Part shown: piece after piece, positions 46,253 to 55,020 of the stretch | Layout of the letters: the number at the start of each line of letters is the position of its first letter | How positions within the stretch are numbered: the first letter of the stretch is position 1 | Origin: Companilactobacillus allii | Lineage (GTDB): Bacteria > Bacillota > Bacilli > Lactobacillales > Lactobacillaceae | DNA: 64,000 nt | NCBI RefSeq assembly: GCF_001971585.1 | Contig: NZ_CP019323.1 | Span: forward strand, 548,053-612,052 | Direction: 5' to 3' | The notes under the pieces: model-generated | The model's database searches: none | What the model was told of the DNA's origin: nothing | What the model saw: the letters and a program-made list of their open reading frames with translations, nothing else | Position numbers and translations under genes: made by a program

Positions 46253-46283
46253 TAAATTGTTTAAGTTATAGGAGGAAAAAGTG

Positions 46284-49200
46284 ATGAATAGAAAAACCAC
46301 CAAGTACAATGTTGGGTTAGATATTGGTACCGCCTCAGTTGGATGGGCTACTACAGGTAACAATTATAATCTGTTAAAAGCAAAAAAAAGAAATCTTTGG
46401 GGAGTCAGATTATTTAATACTGCTGAAACTGCCGCAGATCGAAGAATGAATCGTTCTATAAGAAGACGATATCGAAGACGTAGAAATAGGTTGAATTGGC
46501 TAGATGAGATATTTTCTAGTGAATTATTCAAGACTGATCCAGGATTTTTAAATCGTATGAAATATTCTTGGGTATCCAAAAATGATAAGTCCCGGACCCG
46601 TGACAACTATAATTTATTTATTGATAAAGATTTTAATGATCAAACTTACTATGAAGAATATCCTACTATTTTCCATCTCAGAAAGCGTCTAATTGAGAAT
46701 CCTGAAAAAGCAGATATACGTCTAGTCTATTTGGCAATTCATAATATTTTAAAATATCGTGGGAATTTCACTTACGAACATCAAAAGTTCGATGTTTCGA
46801 GAATGAACGATGGACTTGAATATACTTTGAAAGAATTGAATCAAGCATTGGATCAATTTGGATTGAGTTTTCCAAATGATACTGATTTCAAATTAATTGG
46901 CGATATTTTAGTCAAAAAAGATTGGAATCCTAGTAGCAAAGTAAGTCGAATCATCAAGGAACTTAATCCTACTAAAGATATGAAGCAATTCTATACTTAT
47001 GTAATAAAACTATTAGTTGGAAACAAGGCTGATTTAACAAAACTGTTTAACATTGAATCAAATGAACTAAGTCCTATAAGTTTCTCATCAAATTCGATTG
47101 AAAATGACTTAGCCACCGCTGAAGAAGTACTGTCAGATGAACAATATAACATTATTCTGCTAGCTAATTCTATTTACAGCACTATTGTATTAAATAATAT
47201 TCTAAATGGTAAAACCTATATAAGCTTTGCTCAAGTGGAAAAATATACTGAACATCATGAAGATCTTATGAAACTCAAAAATATTTGGAGAAATGACGAA
47301 GACACTGCTGCAGTGAAAAAGGCTCGTAATGCTTACGAAAAATATTTGAATAATGGTAAATATACCATTCAGGAATTTTATAAAGATATAGGCAAATATT
47401 TAGAAGAAAAAGATGATGACGATTCAAAAAATGCTTTAGAAAAAATTGACAATAATAAATACTTATTAAAACAAAGAACTAGCGACAATGGAGTAATTCC
47501 ATTCCAATTGAACGAAGCCGAATTAATAAAAATCATTGATAATCAATCACAATATTATCCCTTCTTAAAAGATAACAAAGACAAAATTCTATCATTAATA
47601 AACTTCAGAATTCCTTATTATGTTGGACCACTACAAAGTAAAGATAAAATACAAAGTAAAGATAAAATACAAAGTAAAGATAAAAGCGGTTTTGCATGGA
47701 TGGCTAGAAAAGAAAATGGTCCGATCAGACCATGGAATTTTGATGAGAAAGTAGATAGAGAAAAATCATCAAATAACTTCATCCGTCGTATGACATCAAC
47801 TGACACTTATTTAATTGGTGAACCAGTTGTTCCAAAGAATAGTCTGATCTATCAAAAATACGAAGTTCTTAGTGAGTTAAATAACGTAAAAATTGTAAGT
47901 ACTGGTGAAGGATCAGAGAATCAAGAACGATTACGTGTGGAAGTTAAGCAACGTATCTTTAATGAATTATTTAAAAAATATAATACTGTATCCGCTAAAC
48001 GATTAAAGGACTGGCTAATAAAAGAAAGTTATTATTCAGCACCTGAAATTCATGGATTATCTGATAAAACAAAATTCGTATCAAGTCTATCGAGTTATCG
48101 TAAACTATCCAAAATATTTGGAAATGACTTTGTAGATAATGTGAAAAATCAAGATCAATTAGAACAAATCATCGAGTGGCAAACTGTTTTTGAAGACAGA
48201 GAAATCCTCAAGTTAAAGCTCAATAAGTCTAACCAATATGATGAAAAACAAATCAATCAATTAGTAGCCATTAGATATCAAGGTTGGGGAAGATTTTCCA
48301 ACAAATTATTAACACAATTATTTGTAAATACTAAAATTGGAAATGAGCATGAACCAAGTAATCATTCTATTATTGATTTACTATGGCAAACCAAGAGTAA
48401 TCTCATGGAAATATTGCGTGATGATAAATACAACTTTGAATCACAAATCAAAGAATTAAATATTGAGGATAGTTCAGATAAAAAACCACTAGAATTAGTC
48501 AACGACCTGCATGGCTCTCCAGCTCTAAAACGTGGTATCTGGCAAGCCATCAGCATTGTTCAAGAATTATCTGAATTTATGGGACATGCCCCAGAACATA
48601 TCTTCATTGAATTTACACGTGATGACCAAGACAGTTCAATAACTAAATCAAGATATAACAGCCTTAAAAAGCGTTATCAGGACATTAAACAAATGGTTAC
48701 AGATTTAGCACCTACTTTGAAAGAATCTCTATTTCCTACTAAAGACCTTGAAGACCTAATGAAGGACAAAAGAAATTCCCTATCAAATCAGCGACTTATG
48801 CTGTACTTCTCACAAATGGGCAGAAGTCTATACAGTGATGCTGAAATTGATATTACCAGATTATTCACATCTGATTATCAGGTTGATCATATCCTACCTC
48901 AGTCATACATTAAAGACGATTCTCTTGAAAACAAAGCACTGGTTAAAGCTAGTGAAAATCAAAGAAAACAAGATGACTTACTATTATCCAAAGATATAAT
49001 AGCAAATAATCTAACTCGTTGGGAATATTTGAAAAAAGCAGGTTTAATGGGACCTAAAAAATTTGCTAATTTAACTAGAACTGTAGTTACTGATAGACAG
49101 AAGGAAGGTTTTATTAATCGTCAGTTGGTTCAAACATCCCAAATGGTTAAAAATGTTGCAAACATTCTAGATTCAATTTACCCAGATACTCAAGTTATTG

Positions 49201-50381
49201 AGACTCGTGCCAGTTTGGGGATGGGATTTAGAGATTCCTTTAGTAATTTGAATAAAAAAACATGGCATTACGAACATCCAGAATTTGTTAAAAATAGGAA
49301 CGTAAATGACTTTCATCATGCTCAAGATGCTTACATATCAACTATCGTCGGAACATATCAACTTAAGAAATACCCACGAGACAATATGCGATTGGTTTTT
49401 AACGCTTACTCTAAATTTTTTGAAGATGTAAAAAAGAAAACCAGACAAGAGCGTGGTAAAATTCCTGCTTACTCAAGTAATGGTTTTATTATTGGATCAA
49501 TGTTTAATGGTAAAACTCAGGTTAATAAAAATGGTGAGATTATTTGGGATCAGCAAATCAAGGATAGTATTAGTAAGACATTCAAGTTTAAACAGTACAA
49601 CATCACTAAACAAAACTATATTAATGATGGAGCCCTATACAAGCAAACTATTCTTAACAAAAACAACAAAGAATTAATTCCACTCAAAAAGGATCTTGAT
49701 CCACATATCTACGGTGGCTACACTGGCGACATCACCTCATACTCTGTTCTTATCGATGTTGATGGCAAGAAAAAGCTGATAAGTATCCCCGTAAGAATTG
49801 CTCGTGAAATCACTGCCAAAAGGATAAATATTAAAGACTGGATATCTAATAAAGTAAAACACAAAAAGGAAATCCAAATACTCATTGATGTCGTTCCAGT
49901 TGGTCAGTTAGTAAAGAGTGGAGACAAAGGGCTTATTTCTTTACCATCCGGTACAGAAATAGCAAATGCAAATCAATTAATACTTGATTACAAAGAAACA
50001 GCACTTCTTTCATTACTAGAACATTCCACTCTAGACAATTACAGATTTATACTAAGTGGTGACAATGAAGATATTTTACAATCTATATATTCTGATTTGA
50101 TTTTTAAAATCCAAAAATTATATCCACTTTATTCAAGTGAATCAAAACGTTTCAATGATAACTTAGATGAATTTAATAACTGCTCGATTTATGACCAATT
50201 TAATATCATCGAACAAATTCTGAATCTTCTTCACGCTAATTCAACTTGCGCCAACTTGAATTTTGGAAACATTAAATCAACACGCCTCGGTAGAAGATCC
50301 AATGGTTATGAATTTTCTGATTCTGACTTCATTTACAAATCACCAACAGGACTATATGAATCAATAATTCATATAGATTAA
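46284..50381 (+). CDS. cas9: Type II-A CRISPR effector nuclease Cas9
   Basis: A 1365-residue Cas9. RuvC-I GLDIGTASVGWA has Asp13, the Arg-rich bridge helix DRRMNRSIRRRYRRRR follows, RuvC-II IFIEFTRDDQ has Glu776, HNH DYQVDHILPQ has Asp868 and His869, and RuvC-III NDFHHAQDAY has His1012 and Asp1015. Both nuclease sites look intact. The C-terminus is the PAM-interacting region; the PAM cannot be read from sequence. The ATG at 46284 is preferred over the adjacent GTG because AGGAGG is eight bases before it. An 18-nt unit is triplicated at 47632-47685, adding two extra QSKDKI copies after PYYVGPL. Confidence 0.98.
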   Translation: MNRKTTKYNVGLDIGTASVGWATTGNNYNLLKAKKRNLWGVRLFNTAETAADRRMNRSIRRRYRRRRNRLNWLDEIFSSELFKTDPGFLNRMKYSWVSKNDKSRTRDNYNLFIDKDFNDQTYYEEYPTIFHLRKRLIENPEKADIRLVYLAIHNILKYRGNFTYEHQKFDVSRMNDGLEYTLKELNQALDQFGLSFPNDTDFKLIGDILVKKDWNPSSKVSRIIKELNPTKDMKQFYTYVIKLLVGNKADLTKLFNIESNELSPISFSSNSIENDLATAEEVLSDEQYNIILLANSIYSTIVLNNILNGKTYISFAQVEKYTEHHEDLMKLKNIWRNDEDTAAVKKARNAYEKYLNNGKYTIQEFYKDIGKYLEEKDDDDSKNALEKIDNNKYLLKQRTSDNGVIPFQLNEAELIKIIDNQSQYYPFLKDNKDKILSLINFRIPYYVGPLQSKDKIQSKDKIQSKDKSGFAWMARKENGPIRPWNFDEKVDREKSSNNFIRRMTSTDTYLIGEPVVPKNSLIYQKYEVLSELNNVKIVSTGEGSENQERLRVEVKQRIFNELFKKYNTVSAKRLKDWLIKESYYSAPEIHGLSDKTKFVSSLSSYRKLSKIFGNDFVDNVKNQDQLEQIIEWQTVFEDREILKLKLNKSNQYDEKQINQLVAIRYQGWGRFSNKLLTQLFVNTKIGNEHEPSNHSIIDLLWQTKSNLMEILRDDKYNFESQIKELNIEDSSDKKPLELVNDLHGSPALKRGIWQAISIVQELSEFMGHAPEHIFIEFTRDDQDSSITKSRYNSLKKRYQDIKQMVTDLAPTLKESLFPTKDLEDLMKDKRNSLSNQRLMLYFSQMGRSLYSDAEIDITRLFTSDYQVDHILPQSYIKDDSLENKALVKASENQRKQDDLLLSKDIIANNLTRWEYLKKAGLMGPKKFANLTRTVVTDRQKEGFINRQLVQTSQMVKNVANILDSIYPDTQVIETRASLGMGFRDSFSNLNKKTWHYEHPEFVKNRNVNDFHHAQDAYISTIVGTYQLKKYPRDNMRLVFNAYSKFFEDVKKKTRQERGKIPAYSSNGFIIGSMFNGKTQVNKNGEIIWDQQIKDSISKTFKFKQYNITKQNYINDGALYKQTILNKNNKELIPLKKDLDPHIYGGYTGDITSYSVLIDVDGKKKLISIPVRIAREITAKRINIKDWISNKVKHKKEIQILIDVVPVGQLVKSGDKGLISLPSGTEIANANQLILDYKETALLSLLEHSTLDNYRFILSGDNEDILQSIYSDLIFKIQKLYPLYSSESKRFNDNLDEFNNCSIYDQFNIIEQILNLLHANSTCANLNFGNIKSTRLGRRSNGYEFSDSDFIYKSPTGLYESIIHID
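47632..47685 (+). repeat. Perfect 3 x 18-nt in-frame tandem repeat inside cas9
   Basis: Three identical copies of TACAAAGTAAAGATAAAA encode QSKDKI-QSKDKI-QSKDK at residues about 451-467, between the conserved PYYVGPL and FAWMARK blocks. No base differs between copies, so the expansion is recent. Confidence 0.95.
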
Positions 50382-50394
50382 CCTAAAAAAGTGC

Positions 50395-50486
50395 AAAAAA
50401 ATAGCTCCCACGCGGGAGCGGTCACTTGAGACTATTTAACATAAATGTTGATTTTAACTTAGTATGTCATTCTTAGTAGTTTGAAC
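50395..50486 (-). ncRNA. tracrRNA
   Basis: Read on the minus strand it begins about GTTCAAACTACTAAGAATG. A 23-base stretch to ACATACTA is exactly complementary to the CRISPR repeat, followed by AAGTTAAAAT, then a short nexus region and a terminal hairpin GCTCCC/GGGAGC (50404-50419) with seven Ts. This is the usual order anti-repeat, nexus, terminator. It lies between cas9 and cas1, opposite to both, and is about 90 nt long. The 5' end is estimated from the promoter. Confidence 0.93.
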
Positions 50487-50536: not shown

Positions 50537-51415
50537 ATGGGATGGGAAACGATATATATAACTTCAAGATCCAAACTATCTTATAAATCCAATCATTTGT
50601 TAGTACAAACGGTAGCTGACATTCAAGAAATTCCTTTTCATCATATTGGATGCATCGTTATTGCCACAACACAAGCAGTAATTACTGGTTATTTAGTTGA
50701 GAAACTAACTCAAGCAGATATTAAAGTTATTTTTTGTGACAGTGATCATAATCCATGTGCTGAACTAAATGGATATTATTCAAATAATAACCGTAATCAA
50801 AATATTGAAAAGCAATTTTCTTGGCCAATACCCAAAAAAGAACTTCTTTGGACTAGTATTGTTACCAACAAAATTGAAAATCAAATTAACGTATTGAAAC
50901 AATATAACTTAGATACAACGGCTATCATACAAGAATTTAATCAAATAAAAGACAATGACAAAACAAACCGTGAGGCAGTAATAGCAATGAAGTATTTCCC
51001 AGCATTATTTGGTAGCAACTTTTCAAGAGGTAATAAAGAAGATAATATCAACAAAATGCTTAATTATGGATATACTATTTTGTTATCATCAGTCAATCAA
51101 GAGATAATTGCACAAGGATATCTAACACAATTGGGCATTCATCATCACAGTAATCAAAATGACTTTAATTTATCTAGTGACCTTATGGAGCCTTTTAGAC
51201 AATTCGTCGATCAAATAGTAGTTGAACATAAAGATAGTGATTTTGATCTAGAAACAAAGCTAGATATATTAGCAGTCTTAGAAAAGCAAATATCATACAA
51301 TGATAAAAATTACATTTTAAAAAATGCTATTAATCAACACGTTCAAAATTGCTTTAAGTTTTTAGACTCACAGAAGCTTTCTGTAGCTAAGGTGGACTTC
51401 AAAAATGAGGTGTAG
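50537..51415 (+). CDS. cas1: CRISPR integrase Cas1 (type II-A)
   Basis: A 292-residue Cas1, the integrase that inserts spacers with Cas2. The N-terminal beta domain (GWETIYITSRSKLSYKSNHLLVQ) and catalytic residues are visible: Glu in NREAVIAMKYFPALFG, His in LTQLGIHHHSNQNDF and Asp/Glu in LSSDLMEPFRQFVDQ. It begins 155 nt after cas9, across the tracrRNA region, with TAGGAGA upstream, and overlaps cas2 slightly if the earlier cas2 start is used. Confidence 0.97.
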   Translation: MGWETIYITSRSKLSYKSNHLLVQTVADIQEIPFHHIGCIVIATTQAVITGYLVEKLTQADIKVIFCDSDHNPCAELNGYYSNNNRNQNIEKQFSWPIPKKELLWTSIVTNKIENQINVLKQYNLDTTAIIQEFNQIKDNDKTNREAVIAMKYFPALFGSNFSRGNKEDNINKMLNYGYTILLSSVNQEIIAQGYLTQLGIHHHSNQNDFNLSSDLMEPFRQFVDQIVVEHKDSDFDLETKLDILAVLEKQISYNDKNYILKNAINQHVQNCFKFLDSQKLSVAKVDFKNEV

Positions 51416-51419
51416 AATT

Positions 51420-51725
51420 ATGAGATTAATGATAATGTTTGATTTGCCAACATTGACTGCTCAAGATAGGAAGAATTATAGACAGTTTAGAAAGAATCTT
51501 CTAAATGATGGATTCATAATGATGCAAGAATCTATCTATACTTGTTTATTAGTCAATGGGACTTCCGCAAAATTCTTAGAAAATAAAATCAACGTCTACG
51601 CTCCAAAAAAAGGATTGATTCAATCTTTGATTATTACTGAAAAGCAATATGAAGCTATGCGATTAATCACTGGAGAAAAGAACAATCGACCCGAAAATCG
51701 TTTTGAAAGACTGGTGGTAATATGA
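51420..51725 (+). CDS. cas2: CRISPR-associated Cas2
   Basis: A 101-residue Cas2 with the ferredoxin-like start MRLMIMFDLPTLTAQDRKNY (Asp after the first strand) and NRFERLVVI at the C-terminal strand. It forms the central dimer of the Cas1-Cas2 integrase. The ATG at 51420 is chosen because GAGGTG lies seven bases before it and the family starts here; the ATG at 51405 lies inside cas1. It overlaps csn2 by 4 nt (ATGA). Confidence 0.95.
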   Translation: MRLMIMFDLPTLTAQDRKNYRQFRKNLLNDGFIMMQESIYTCLLVNGTSAKFLENKINVYAPKKGLIQSLIITEKQYEAMRLITGEKNNRPENRFERLVVI

Positions 51726-52428
51726 GCCCTGAATCTATTACTATTTTCCCTTATAAGCCATTCGATATCGAATATGGTATGACTATTTTTAATCTTCAAA
51801 ATGAGGAAGAATTCTCAAACTTATTATTTAATTTGAATCAATTAAAAAAACACGAAGCCTTTATTGATGATGTTGACCAATATATTCATTTTTATGTAGA
51901 CGAAGAAGATAATTTAAAGACATCTCTTAAGCAAGTAGCCATGCTGGGTGATTTGACTAGTTATAATATCAATTCTGTCGGCAATTTGAAACTAGTATTT
52001 CAAAAGATCGTCGCTGATAACCAAGTAATTAACCGAGATAAACTAGAATCATTAAACAAATTAACGAACTTGTTTTTGATTCCATCAATGGTTACGACGA
52101 AAATTTTTATTATGATTTAATGCCAGAATTAACAAAATTACTTAAATCAAAAGAACTTTCAATAGATACTAGTAATTGGCAGAATTATTATGATAAACTT
52201 CAATCAGTTATTAGATTTTACGTAGAATTCGATAACAAAAGATTGTTATTATTTCATGGGTTAGAACGCCTATGTAGTTTGGAACAAATTAACGAATTGA
52301 ATGATTACTTAAAATCCGTCGAGTTATCTGTAGTTAGTCTAGAATCATACCCAATGACATTGAAAAGGCCTGGTTTGAACACCCATGTTTATTCAATAGA
52401 TGAGGATCATGTTAGATTTGATTACTAA
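51722..52428 (+). pseudogene. csn2: csn2 split by an apparent 1-nt deletion
   Basis: Frame one (51722-52120) gives MSPESITIFPYKPFDIEYGM through NKLTNL and then an unrelated tail; frame two from 52072 gives VFDSINGYDENFYYD and continues to the stop at 52428. Joined at about 52069-52072 they make a protein of about 235 residues that follows the Csn2 pattern throughout (MLGDLTSYNINS, then LTNL-VFDSI, KRLLLFHGLERL). Adding one base restores the frame. Csn2 is a ring-forming DNA-end binder needed for spacer acquisition. The second part could also start at ATG 52120, which overlaps the first stop as TAATG, so two coupled fragments might be made. A sequencing error is possible. Confidence 0.85.
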
Positions 52429-52454
52429 CATTTAAAGTTAACGTTAACTAGGTG
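52429..52454 (+). promoter_or_regulatory. Very short CRISPR leader with perfect palindrome
   Basis: Only 26 bases separate the csn2 stop from the first repeat. They contain AGTTAACGTTAACT (52436-52449), a perfect 14-base palindrome, and end CTAGGTG at the repeat, the place of the leader-anchoring sequence in type II-A systems. Confidence 0.6.
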
Positions 52455-53348
52455 GTTTTAGTAGTATGTCATTCTTAGTAGTTTAGAACCAAAAAAATTG
52501 GTAGTTCTTTCACAGGAGCAGTTTTAGTAGTATGTCATTCTTAGTAGTTTAGAACCAAAACGTTAAAAATAAACTGAGTCTCGTGTGTTTTAGTAGTATG
52601 TCATTCTTAGTAGTTTAGAACCCTAGAACTGCTGACAAAGCGACTTTTGACAGTTTTAGTAGTATGTCATTCTTAGTAGTTTAGAACCAATGAAGTACTA
52701 GTTAAGAACTTTAATATGGTTTTAGTAGTATGTCATTCTTAGTAGTTTAGAACCTGTTCTAAAAATACAAGAGGCAACCAAGCGGTTTTAGTAGTATGTC
52801 ATTCTTAGTAGTTTAGAACCATATATGTCACGTAGCAAATCAGTAAACTTGTTTTAGTAGTATGTCATTCTTAGTAGTTTAGAACCTGGCGTCAGCGTCA
52901 ATGTTTGCCATGTTGGGTTTTAGTAGTATGTCATTCTTAGTAGTTTAGAACCTGCTTTGAGTAATTCTTCGATTCTGTTCTCGTTTTAGTAGTATGTCAT
53001 TCTTAGTAGTTTAGAACCAATGTTAAACAAGATTGAGAGTCAAGCTACGTTTTAGTAGTATGTCATTCTTAGTAGTTTAGAACCTGTAATATGCTATAGT
53101 GAGACTATTAAATAGTTTTAGTAGTATGTCATTCTTAGTAGTTTAGAACCATTTTTAACGTTCTCAATGAGTAATATTGAGTTTTAGTAGTATGTCATTC
53201 TTAGTAGTTTAGAACCATCTCCTAAAGCAACAATCACGCAGCTAGAGTTTTAGTAGTATGTCTTTCTTAGTAGTTTAGAACCAATATTGAGTGAGCCCCG
53301 TACAGTAACACGGTTTTAGCAGTATGTCTTTCTTAGTAGTTTAAAAAC
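52455..53348 (+). CRISPR. Type II-A CRISPR array, 14 repeats and 13 spacers
   Basis: Strictly periodic 36-nt repeats and 30-nt spacers (66-nt period) starting at 52455, 52521, 52587 and so on to 53313. The repeat starts GTTTTAGTAGTATGTC and ends AGTAGTTTAGAACC. Repeats 1-12 are identical; repeat 13 has T for A in the middle (TCTTTC), and repeat 14 adds more changes including a damaged 3' end. Decay away from cas genes shows the leader is at the csn2 side. All spacers differ. Twelve of 13 begin with A or T. Targets are unknown without a search. Confidence 0.99.
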
Positions 53349-53775: not shown

Positions 53776-55020
53776 ATGCCACAACTTCCCTATTACTATG
53801 GAACCAAAGTACGTATTTTTCCATCTAACAGTCAAAAAAGATTAATCAAGAAAAATAGTGACGCTAGTCGTTTTATCTATAATCAAATGGCCGGAATCAA
53901 TCAAGAACTATATTTCCTTAGACAAGTTAAAATACCAATCAAAATTGTACAAAAACGTATTGACACACTAGAAGAGCGCTTGAGAAATCCTGCTACTGGA
54001 ATTTCAAATATTCATGGTTGGCTTAATGATAAAGAACTAGATAGCCTAATGAAGGCCAATGCAATTAGAAACTATCGGTCAGCTTGGAGTATGTTTTACA
54101 AAGTACACAATACGGGAATACCAGTATTTCACAAAAAAGGAATTGAACAAAAATATCAGACTTCCTGTATGTATGCTGGCAAATTACCCATAACTAATAT
54201 GAATAATGGCAATGTTCGGCTACTCAATAATCGATATATCCATCTACCTAAACTAGGAAACATACGATTTAAAGGTATGCCTAAAAAATTACTTTCTCGT
54301 AAAGAAAACATTCGCATTGGTACCACCACGGTCTCAATGGATTCTACAGGTTGTTACTATATCTCCTTACAACTGGCATCAGAACAACCATTTGTAACTG
54401 TGCTAAATATTAATAACAGCTCTCCAATCGGTATTGACTTGAATACCGATAATTTTATAACCGATTCTGATGGTAATACCATTGATAATCCACGTTATTA
54501 TCGATCTATTAAGGGCAAACTAGCGAAGGCACAACAAAAGTTATCTCGTCGTGCACTACGTGCAAAAAGAGAGCATAGGTCATTATGCGACTCTAAAAAC
54601 TACCAAGAACAACGCAAAATTGTTGCAACTATCCAACGTAGAGTAACTAATTGTCGTAAAAATTTCTTACATAATGTATCGACAACACTTATCAAAAACC
54701 ACGATTTGGTTGTCGCTGAAGAGCTTCGAAGTAAGAATATGTTACAGAATCATGCACTTGCCATGAGTATTGCCGATGTTGGCTGGAAAATATTTTTAAA
54801 TATGTTGACCTACAAGGCTGAACTTTACGGACAAAAATTTATTACTATTAGTCCATACAATACAACGCAGAAATGCAGTAATTGTGCATTTGTAATGCGC
54901 GGTAATCAGAAACTAACGTTAGCAGATCGAAAATGGACATGTCCAAAATGTTGTATGCACCATATTCGAGACCATAATGCTGCCAAAAACATTCTGAATA
55001 AAGGATTAATATTGAATTAA
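53776..55020 (+). CDS. tnpB: IS200/IS605-type TnpB RNA-guided nuclease (orphan)
   Basis: A 414-residue TnpB. The N-terminal helix-turn-helix-like domain (GTKVRIFPSNSQKRLIKKNSDASRFIYNQMA) is followed by an OB-like barrel and RuvC: SPIGIDLNTDNFITD (Asp), LVVAEELRSKNM (Glu) and HIRDHNAAKNIL (Asp), with the zinc finger KCSNC...CPKC between the last two. All catalytic residues are kept. No tnpA is near. The strong AAGGAGGTG (53747-53755) lies 20 nt from this ATG, too far, so translation may begin at an upstream non-ATG codon such as CTG 53764. Confidence 0.9.
   Translation: MPQLPYYYGTKVRIFPSNSQKRLIKKNSDASRFIYNQMAGINQELYFLRQVKIPIKIVQKRIDTLEERLRNPATGISNIHGWLNDKELDSLMKANAIRNYRSAWSMFYKVHNTGIPVFHKKGIEQKYQTSCMYAGKLPITNMNNGNVRLLNNRYIHLPKLGNIRFKGMPKKLLSRKENIRIGTTTVSMDSTGCYYISLQLASEQPFVTVLNINNSSPIGIDLNTDNFITDSDGNTIDNPRYYRSIKGKLAKAQQKLSRRALRAKREHRSLCDSKNYQEQRKIVATIQRRVTNCRKNFLHNVSTTLIKNHDLVVAEELRSKNMLQNHALAMSIADVGWKIFLNMLTYKAELYGQKFITISPYNTTQKCSNCAFVMRGNQKLTLADRKWTCPKCCMHHIRDHNAAKNILNKGLILN

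Follow-up and report, generated by a model that had tools for sequence, protein, structure and literature searches.

The window analysed here, a stretch of 64,000 nucleotides of the Companilactobacillus allii chromosome, holds a type II-A CRISPR-Cas locus whose csn2 gene is divided between two reading frames. Its features, in window coordinates, are the following.

46281-50381, + strand: cas9, 1366 aa, uninterrupted (TIGR01865, 849.8 bits)
50395-50486 (ends approximate), - strand: putative tracrRNA with anti-repeat, promoter-like site and terminator
50404-50419, - strand: terminator hairpin and T-run of the putative tracrRNA
about 50451-50486, - strand: anti-repeat of the putative tracrRNA
50521-50493, - strand: promoter-like TTGATT-17-TATAAT of the putative tracrRNA
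50537-51415, + strand: cas1, 292 aa, uninterrupted (TIGR03639, 293.6 bits)
51405-51725, + strand: cas2, 106 aa, uninterrupted (TIGR01573, 73.5 bits)
51722-52120, + strand: csn2 piece 1, 132 aa, with a tail of ~20 residues outside the ancestral frame
52057/52058, + strand: 4-nt gap relative to the csn2 of relatives (DNA alignment; placement uncertain by a few nt)
52120-52428, + strand: csn2 piece 2, 102 aa from ATG, TIGR01866 match
52429-52454, + strand: leader, 26 nt, containing a near-palindrome common to six relatives
52455-53348, + strand: CRISPR array, 14 repeats of 36 nt and 13 spacers of 30 nt

Composition and conservation of the locus

Gene order and family matches place cas9, cas1 and cas2 side by side in a predicted operon, the array of 36-nt repeats adjoins csn2, and a putative tracrRNA with an anti-repeat can be recognised by sequence, as belongs to a type II-A system. 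A single full-length Csn2 frame is missing, which makes this a degenerate II-A locus. Assignment to type II-C was also considered and rejected, as the Csn2 remnant found here and the csn2 genes of the relatives rule out a csn2-free ancestry. The Cas9 product contains what we take to be the RuvC and HNH motifs. An Rfam search returned no tracrRNA match, its one match falling far below the threshold of its own family. The array has a 66-nt period, with 12 identical repeats followed by two distal degenerate ones (one and four mismatches), a pattern usual for the old end of an array. Shortly downstream of it, at 53776-55020, lies a gene for a TnpB-family RNA-guided endonuclease of 414 aa.

The type II-A loci of C. 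jidongensis, C. nodensis and C. insicii, all with the short form of Csn2, have the same gene order and start/stop overlaps as C. allii, as well as 36-nt repeats starting with GTTTTAG and an array directly after csn2. In these species, however, Csn2 is one frame of 236 aa, whereas in C. allii it is broken, and the repeat sequence and two leader positions of C. allii also differ from those of its relatives. We compared positions that are invariant among 12-15 other loci of the genus, leaving out for each gene the loci with an interrupted copy. Cas9 showed no departure at 280 positions (12 other rows), while Cas1 and Cas2 showed one departure each, at 94 (14 rows) and 40 positions (15 rows), respectively. 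The two Csn2 pieces kept all 41 comparable positions, one further position being masked at the break. A previous sequence-only reading of this DNA had described csn2 as broken while cas9, cas1, cas2 and the array look intact, and the family matches and repeat comparison bear this description out.

A 4-nt gap divides csn2

The same reading had proposed that two overlapping + strand frames jointly yield Csn2, and that one base missing near 52069-52072 separates them. We found agreement on the first point from the translations, from the match of the C-terminal piece to NCBIfam TIGR01866 (49.8 bits, E 3.5e-13) and from the alignment of window 51722-52087 with residues 1-122 of C. jidongensis Csn2. 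Piece 1 alone matched no Pfam or NCBIfam family at E 1e-3. The position and size of the lesion had to be revised. The csn2 gene of C. allii measures 707 nt, vs 711 nt in C. jidongensis, C. nodensis and C. insicii, its three closest relatives, each of which has a single open frame of 236 aa; one base cannot account for this difference. Instead, DNA alignment with these species placed a single 4-nt gap at codon ~112-114, that is 12-15 nt upstream of the proposed missing base, in a gene otherwise free of indels. Alignment to the Csn2 of relatives thus upheld the break but not its attribution to a single base.

Just upstream of 52069-52072 the -1 frame reads KQINEL, where the relatives have QINDL or EINEL, and it carries the ancestral peptide from about this point onward. 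The -1 frame of piece 2 is open from 52042, and both frames are open only within 52042-52117 (76 nt). No run of at least five A or T is present at the gap, the nearest being a T5 at 52073, downstream of it. At the break, the C. insicii peptide is NKQIN, which would fit an A-rich, slippage-prone ancestral stretch. Replication slippage that dropped one unit from a short A-rich repeat may have produced the gap.

The break lies inside the stretch of Csn2 that is homologous to solved chains, at about profile position 112-114: a profile of the Csn2 proteins of the genus was homologous over positions ~47-210 to PDB 3toc/3v7f and 3qhq (E 2.5e-10 and 2.2e-9; 57-210 in the case of 3toc), which we take to be the Csn2 of Streptococcus pyogenes and S. 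agalactiae, respectively. An AlphaFold2 model of C. insicii Csn2, built from 7 sequences, had a mean pLDDT of 37 and was discarded.

The split is probably present in two assemblies

A sequencing or assembly error in an actually intact csn2 would leave the gene otherwise unspoiled, as we observed. However, a 4-nt difference away from A/T runs of five or more is atypical of indel errors, and both pieces were also found on a contig whose length differs from that of this chromosome. In the protein database, three contigs encode the identical 132-aa product of piece 1 (P0020). Piece 2 is present there as a protein of 114 aa (P0001), encoded on two contigs, whose first residue falls at ATC 52084, 12 residues ahead of ATG 52120. 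The longest contig carrying them is in both cases 2,508,658 bp long, vs 2,506,167 bp for the chromosome analysed here, and for this reason the split csn2 is probably carried by two assemblies. We accordingly regard an error as very unlikely. Both assemblies may come from one strain, so a mutation acquired in the laboratory could also account for the split. The protein database search gave no intact csn2 copy from the same species, and the nearest intact Csn2 in it was 78-79% identical.

Neither two polypeptides nor recoding is likely to restore Csn2

The two products started at ATG both lack ancestral residues ~113-134, about 22 central residues; if the start of the 114-aa form were used, only about 10 would be missing. 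According to the sequence-only reading, the start of the second frame at ATG 52120 overlaps the stop of the first. This overlap is indeed present, as TAATG at 52118-52122, and had raised the alternative of a translationally coupled Csn2, in which termination and reinitiation at TAATG, or an earlier unusual start, would supply a second polypeptide that assembles with the first. The conserved residues kept in both pieces and the 114-aa form in the protein database are also compatible with this arrangement. Nevertheless, the letters before ATG 52120 are CGAAAATTTTTATTATGATTTA, and by eye we recognised in them no stretch resembling a ribosome site at the usual distance, while piece 1 has GGTGG upstream, and the central residues would still be absent from both ATG-started products. 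Moreover, a split at the same place is absent from the 15 other loci of the genus, and the C-terminal-only Csn2 matches found elsewhere in the family (genomes G031, G424, G071 and G152) do not include a clean second example. The coupled arrangement was not sustained by these results, and we consider it extremely unlikely.

Full-length Csn2 could alternatively be made in some amount by ribosomal -1 frameshifting or transcript slippage within 52042-52117, as both frames can be read through these 76 nt, which contain T5 runs at 52073 and 52104. However, we found no in-phase slippery heptamer of the X XXY YYZ type in it, the sole heptamer of this form, AAATTTT at 52101, being out of phase; a T5 is short for transcript slippage; and the 4-nt gap explains the difference in length unaided. 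There is thus hardly any likelihood that recoding rescues the gene. Nor did we find a substitute for the broken Csn2 among the searched genome and plasmid records: whole-genome searches gave one Csn2 match only, and plasmid records gave none at E 1e-5.

csn2 decay in the genus and family

To place the break in context, we examined 16 genus loci, namely the window and the loci with the closest cas1 in 15 genus genomes (60 genomes searched; other type II loci of the genus were left out). By tblastn, csn2 was broken in two of them (the window and G031), cas9 in three (G023 and G031 carry stops, C. nodensis a frame change), cas1 in one (a frame change in G009, locus L077) and cas2 in none. These counts show no excess of csn2 lesions, cas9 being hit about as often as csn2 among these 16 loci. 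G031 (L068) has an independent 10-nt deletion in csn2, and its cas9 is interrupted by a stop at codon 62. In G023 (L079), a TAA occupies cas9 codon 620. The cas9 frame change of C. nodensis (L003) is possibly a draft error.

The collections searched hold one genome per species. In 397 Lactobacillaceae genomes we obtained 136 Csn2 matches, distributed over 132 genomes, and the split-gene check was centred on the 10 of these 136 rows that were short or interrupted, the only criteria for a two-frame arrangement being coverage and an open frame. Three rows stop at contig ends and are not judgeable (G396, G134 and G425:C27), and the remaining 7/136 are broken or fragmentary (G000, G031, G227, G419, G424, G071 and G152, the window included), the verdict on G071 and G152 being based only on the search rows and on tblastn. 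Besides the window, a C-terminal-only match was seen in G031, G424, G071 and G152. The last two contain stops inside the Csn2 match, and in G071 cas1 is also in pieces, whereas in the window csn2 alone was hit. In G424 (L071), csn2 lacks its first part and the upstream sequence reads by eye as an IS3-type transposase, suggesting an insertion. Decay of csn2 in C. allii is an ordinary event, similar to decay elsewhere in the family, and nothing that we found pointed to the split having a special function.

With respect to published loci, the nearest precedent that we found is in PMC6882279, the accessible part of which describes three mollicute loci in which csn2 was not detected, with disrupted genes marked in a figure. 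The split C. allii csn2 is not reported in the accessible parts of this article or of PMC5727150, PMC4607530, PMC5382924, PMC6070500 and PMC11893278. The retrievable text of the literature on csn2 frameshift, truncation or leader likewise contained no report of it, and among publications naming C. allii no title or opening of an abstract concerned CRISPR.

The break is probably recent

Neither piece of csn2 has acquired a further stop in its own frame. For the pieces of the window, dN/dS was 0.08-0.15 in the four of six pairs with finite dS, compared with 0.03-0.12 among pairs of intact relatives where dS was finite, and csn2 is thus strongly constrained in the relatives. Since further stops are absent, dN/dS is low, and the invariant positions and repeats are unspoiled, the sequence suggests that the break is probably recent. 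In piece 1, dN was 0.105 on the window branch vs 0.03 on the C. insicii branch, which could mean some relaxation. However, we draw no conclusion from this difference, because cas1 is also faster on the window branch (0.08 vs 0.046) and piece 2 differs little (0.065 vs 0.05).

The leader and the 3' half of csn2

In 7/16 genus loci a near-palindrome is present at the end of csn2 adjoining the array; it reads ACTTAAAGTTAACGTTAAGT in the six relatives and includes the stop codon of csn2 in G023 and G017. Eight further loci have a leader that ends in CG, and one was assigned to neither class. The C. allii leader, which belongs to the same class as that of the six relatives, ends in TAGGTG. For 167 II-A loci, leader ends ATTTGAG, CTRCGAG and CG have been described in the part of PMC5382924 available to us; C. 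allii has none of these ends, and the palindromic Companilactobacillus class falls outside the three leader-end classes given there. The core pattern of the palindrome was found in 6/397 family genomes, all of them Companilactobacillus (C. nodensis is outside this sample). The palindrome of C. allii departs from that of the six relatives by a C to T and a G to C change at mirror positions. Both could stem from constraint having relaxed once acquisition was lost, or from the leader having co-evolved with the changed repeat.

We also observed that the 3' half of csn2 (~52100-52428) conserves codons more than the 5' half: at conserved amino acids of 13 intact genes, the observed/expected ratio of identical codons was 1.22 vs 1.06, a contrast reached in 9/5000 column permutations, which for related sequences is no strict probability. 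As the leader is so short, we suggest that csn2 may contain the promoter of the array or an element of the leader, in which case a portion of the gene would be kept for its DNA sequence, whether or not the protein is made.

Probable interference without acquisition

Taken together, we conclude with good confidence that csn2 of C. allii is a recent frameshift pseudogene in a type II-A locus that should still cut but would no longer acquire spacers. With an out-of-frame tail on piece 1, no evident ribosome site for piece 2 and ~22 central residues in neither piece, no working Csn2 ring would be expected to form. Existing spacers should still guide cutting, because no damage is seen in Cas9, the array or the putative tracrRNA. 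In contrast, new spacers would be neither captured nor integrated, since acquisition in II-A systems needs Csn2 beside Cas1, Cas2 and Cas9. The need for Csn2 has been established in streptococci; Companilactobacillus is a different genus, and its leader at this locus falls outside the published classes. The proposal of the sequence-only reading that the locus may still cut but no longer learn is therefore the best inference from a broken csn2 and intact remaining parts.

The explanations weighed here are not all mutually exclusive, as one of them accepts a broken csn2: the locus could still acquire spacers without Csn2, in a II-C-like manner, and the break would then be nearly neutral. The leader-proximal repeats are perfect, Cas1 and Cas2 remain conserved, and II-C systems lack csn2 according to the accessible part of PMC5727150. 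The same part of that source states, however, that II-A acquisition needs csn2; the gene is under strong constraint in the relatives; and perfect repeats with constrained cas1 and cas2 are equally expected from a recent break. The 12 perfect repeats show recent array growth, which may precede or follow the break. We judge acquisition without Csn2 to be unlikely. More speculatively, and quite improbably in our view, those II-A loci of Companilactobacillus that carry the palindromic GTTAACGTTAA leader might be capable of acquiring spacers without Csn2, which would make this strain a natural csn2-independent II-A system.

C. allii is a kimchi bacterium. The strain is almost certainly WiKim39: its second contig, 28,011 bp long, matches p3_WK39, a WiKim39 plasmid record of equal length, at 100% identity over the initial 20 kb. 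If csn2 is indeed a pseudogene that has cost the locus its acquisition, the strain would be a natural csn2 knockout in a food-grade background, suited to studying interference without acquisition, and its spacer content should be frozen. Recognition of the split corrects the annotation and guards against scoring the locus as fully active.

Finally, we searched for targets of the spacers. The whole array gave only weak matches to phage and plasmid records (best E 0.3), and 19-21 bases of each of spacers 1, 2, 3, 7, 8 and 11 (6/13), 21 bases in the case of spacer 11, gave no exact match in viral contigs. Against the phage and plasmid records, the best result was that of spacer 11 (53151-53180), with exact matches of 22-23 bases to six records and E of at least 0.3, to be taken as a lead only; some of these six are annotated as cytosine methyltransferase.
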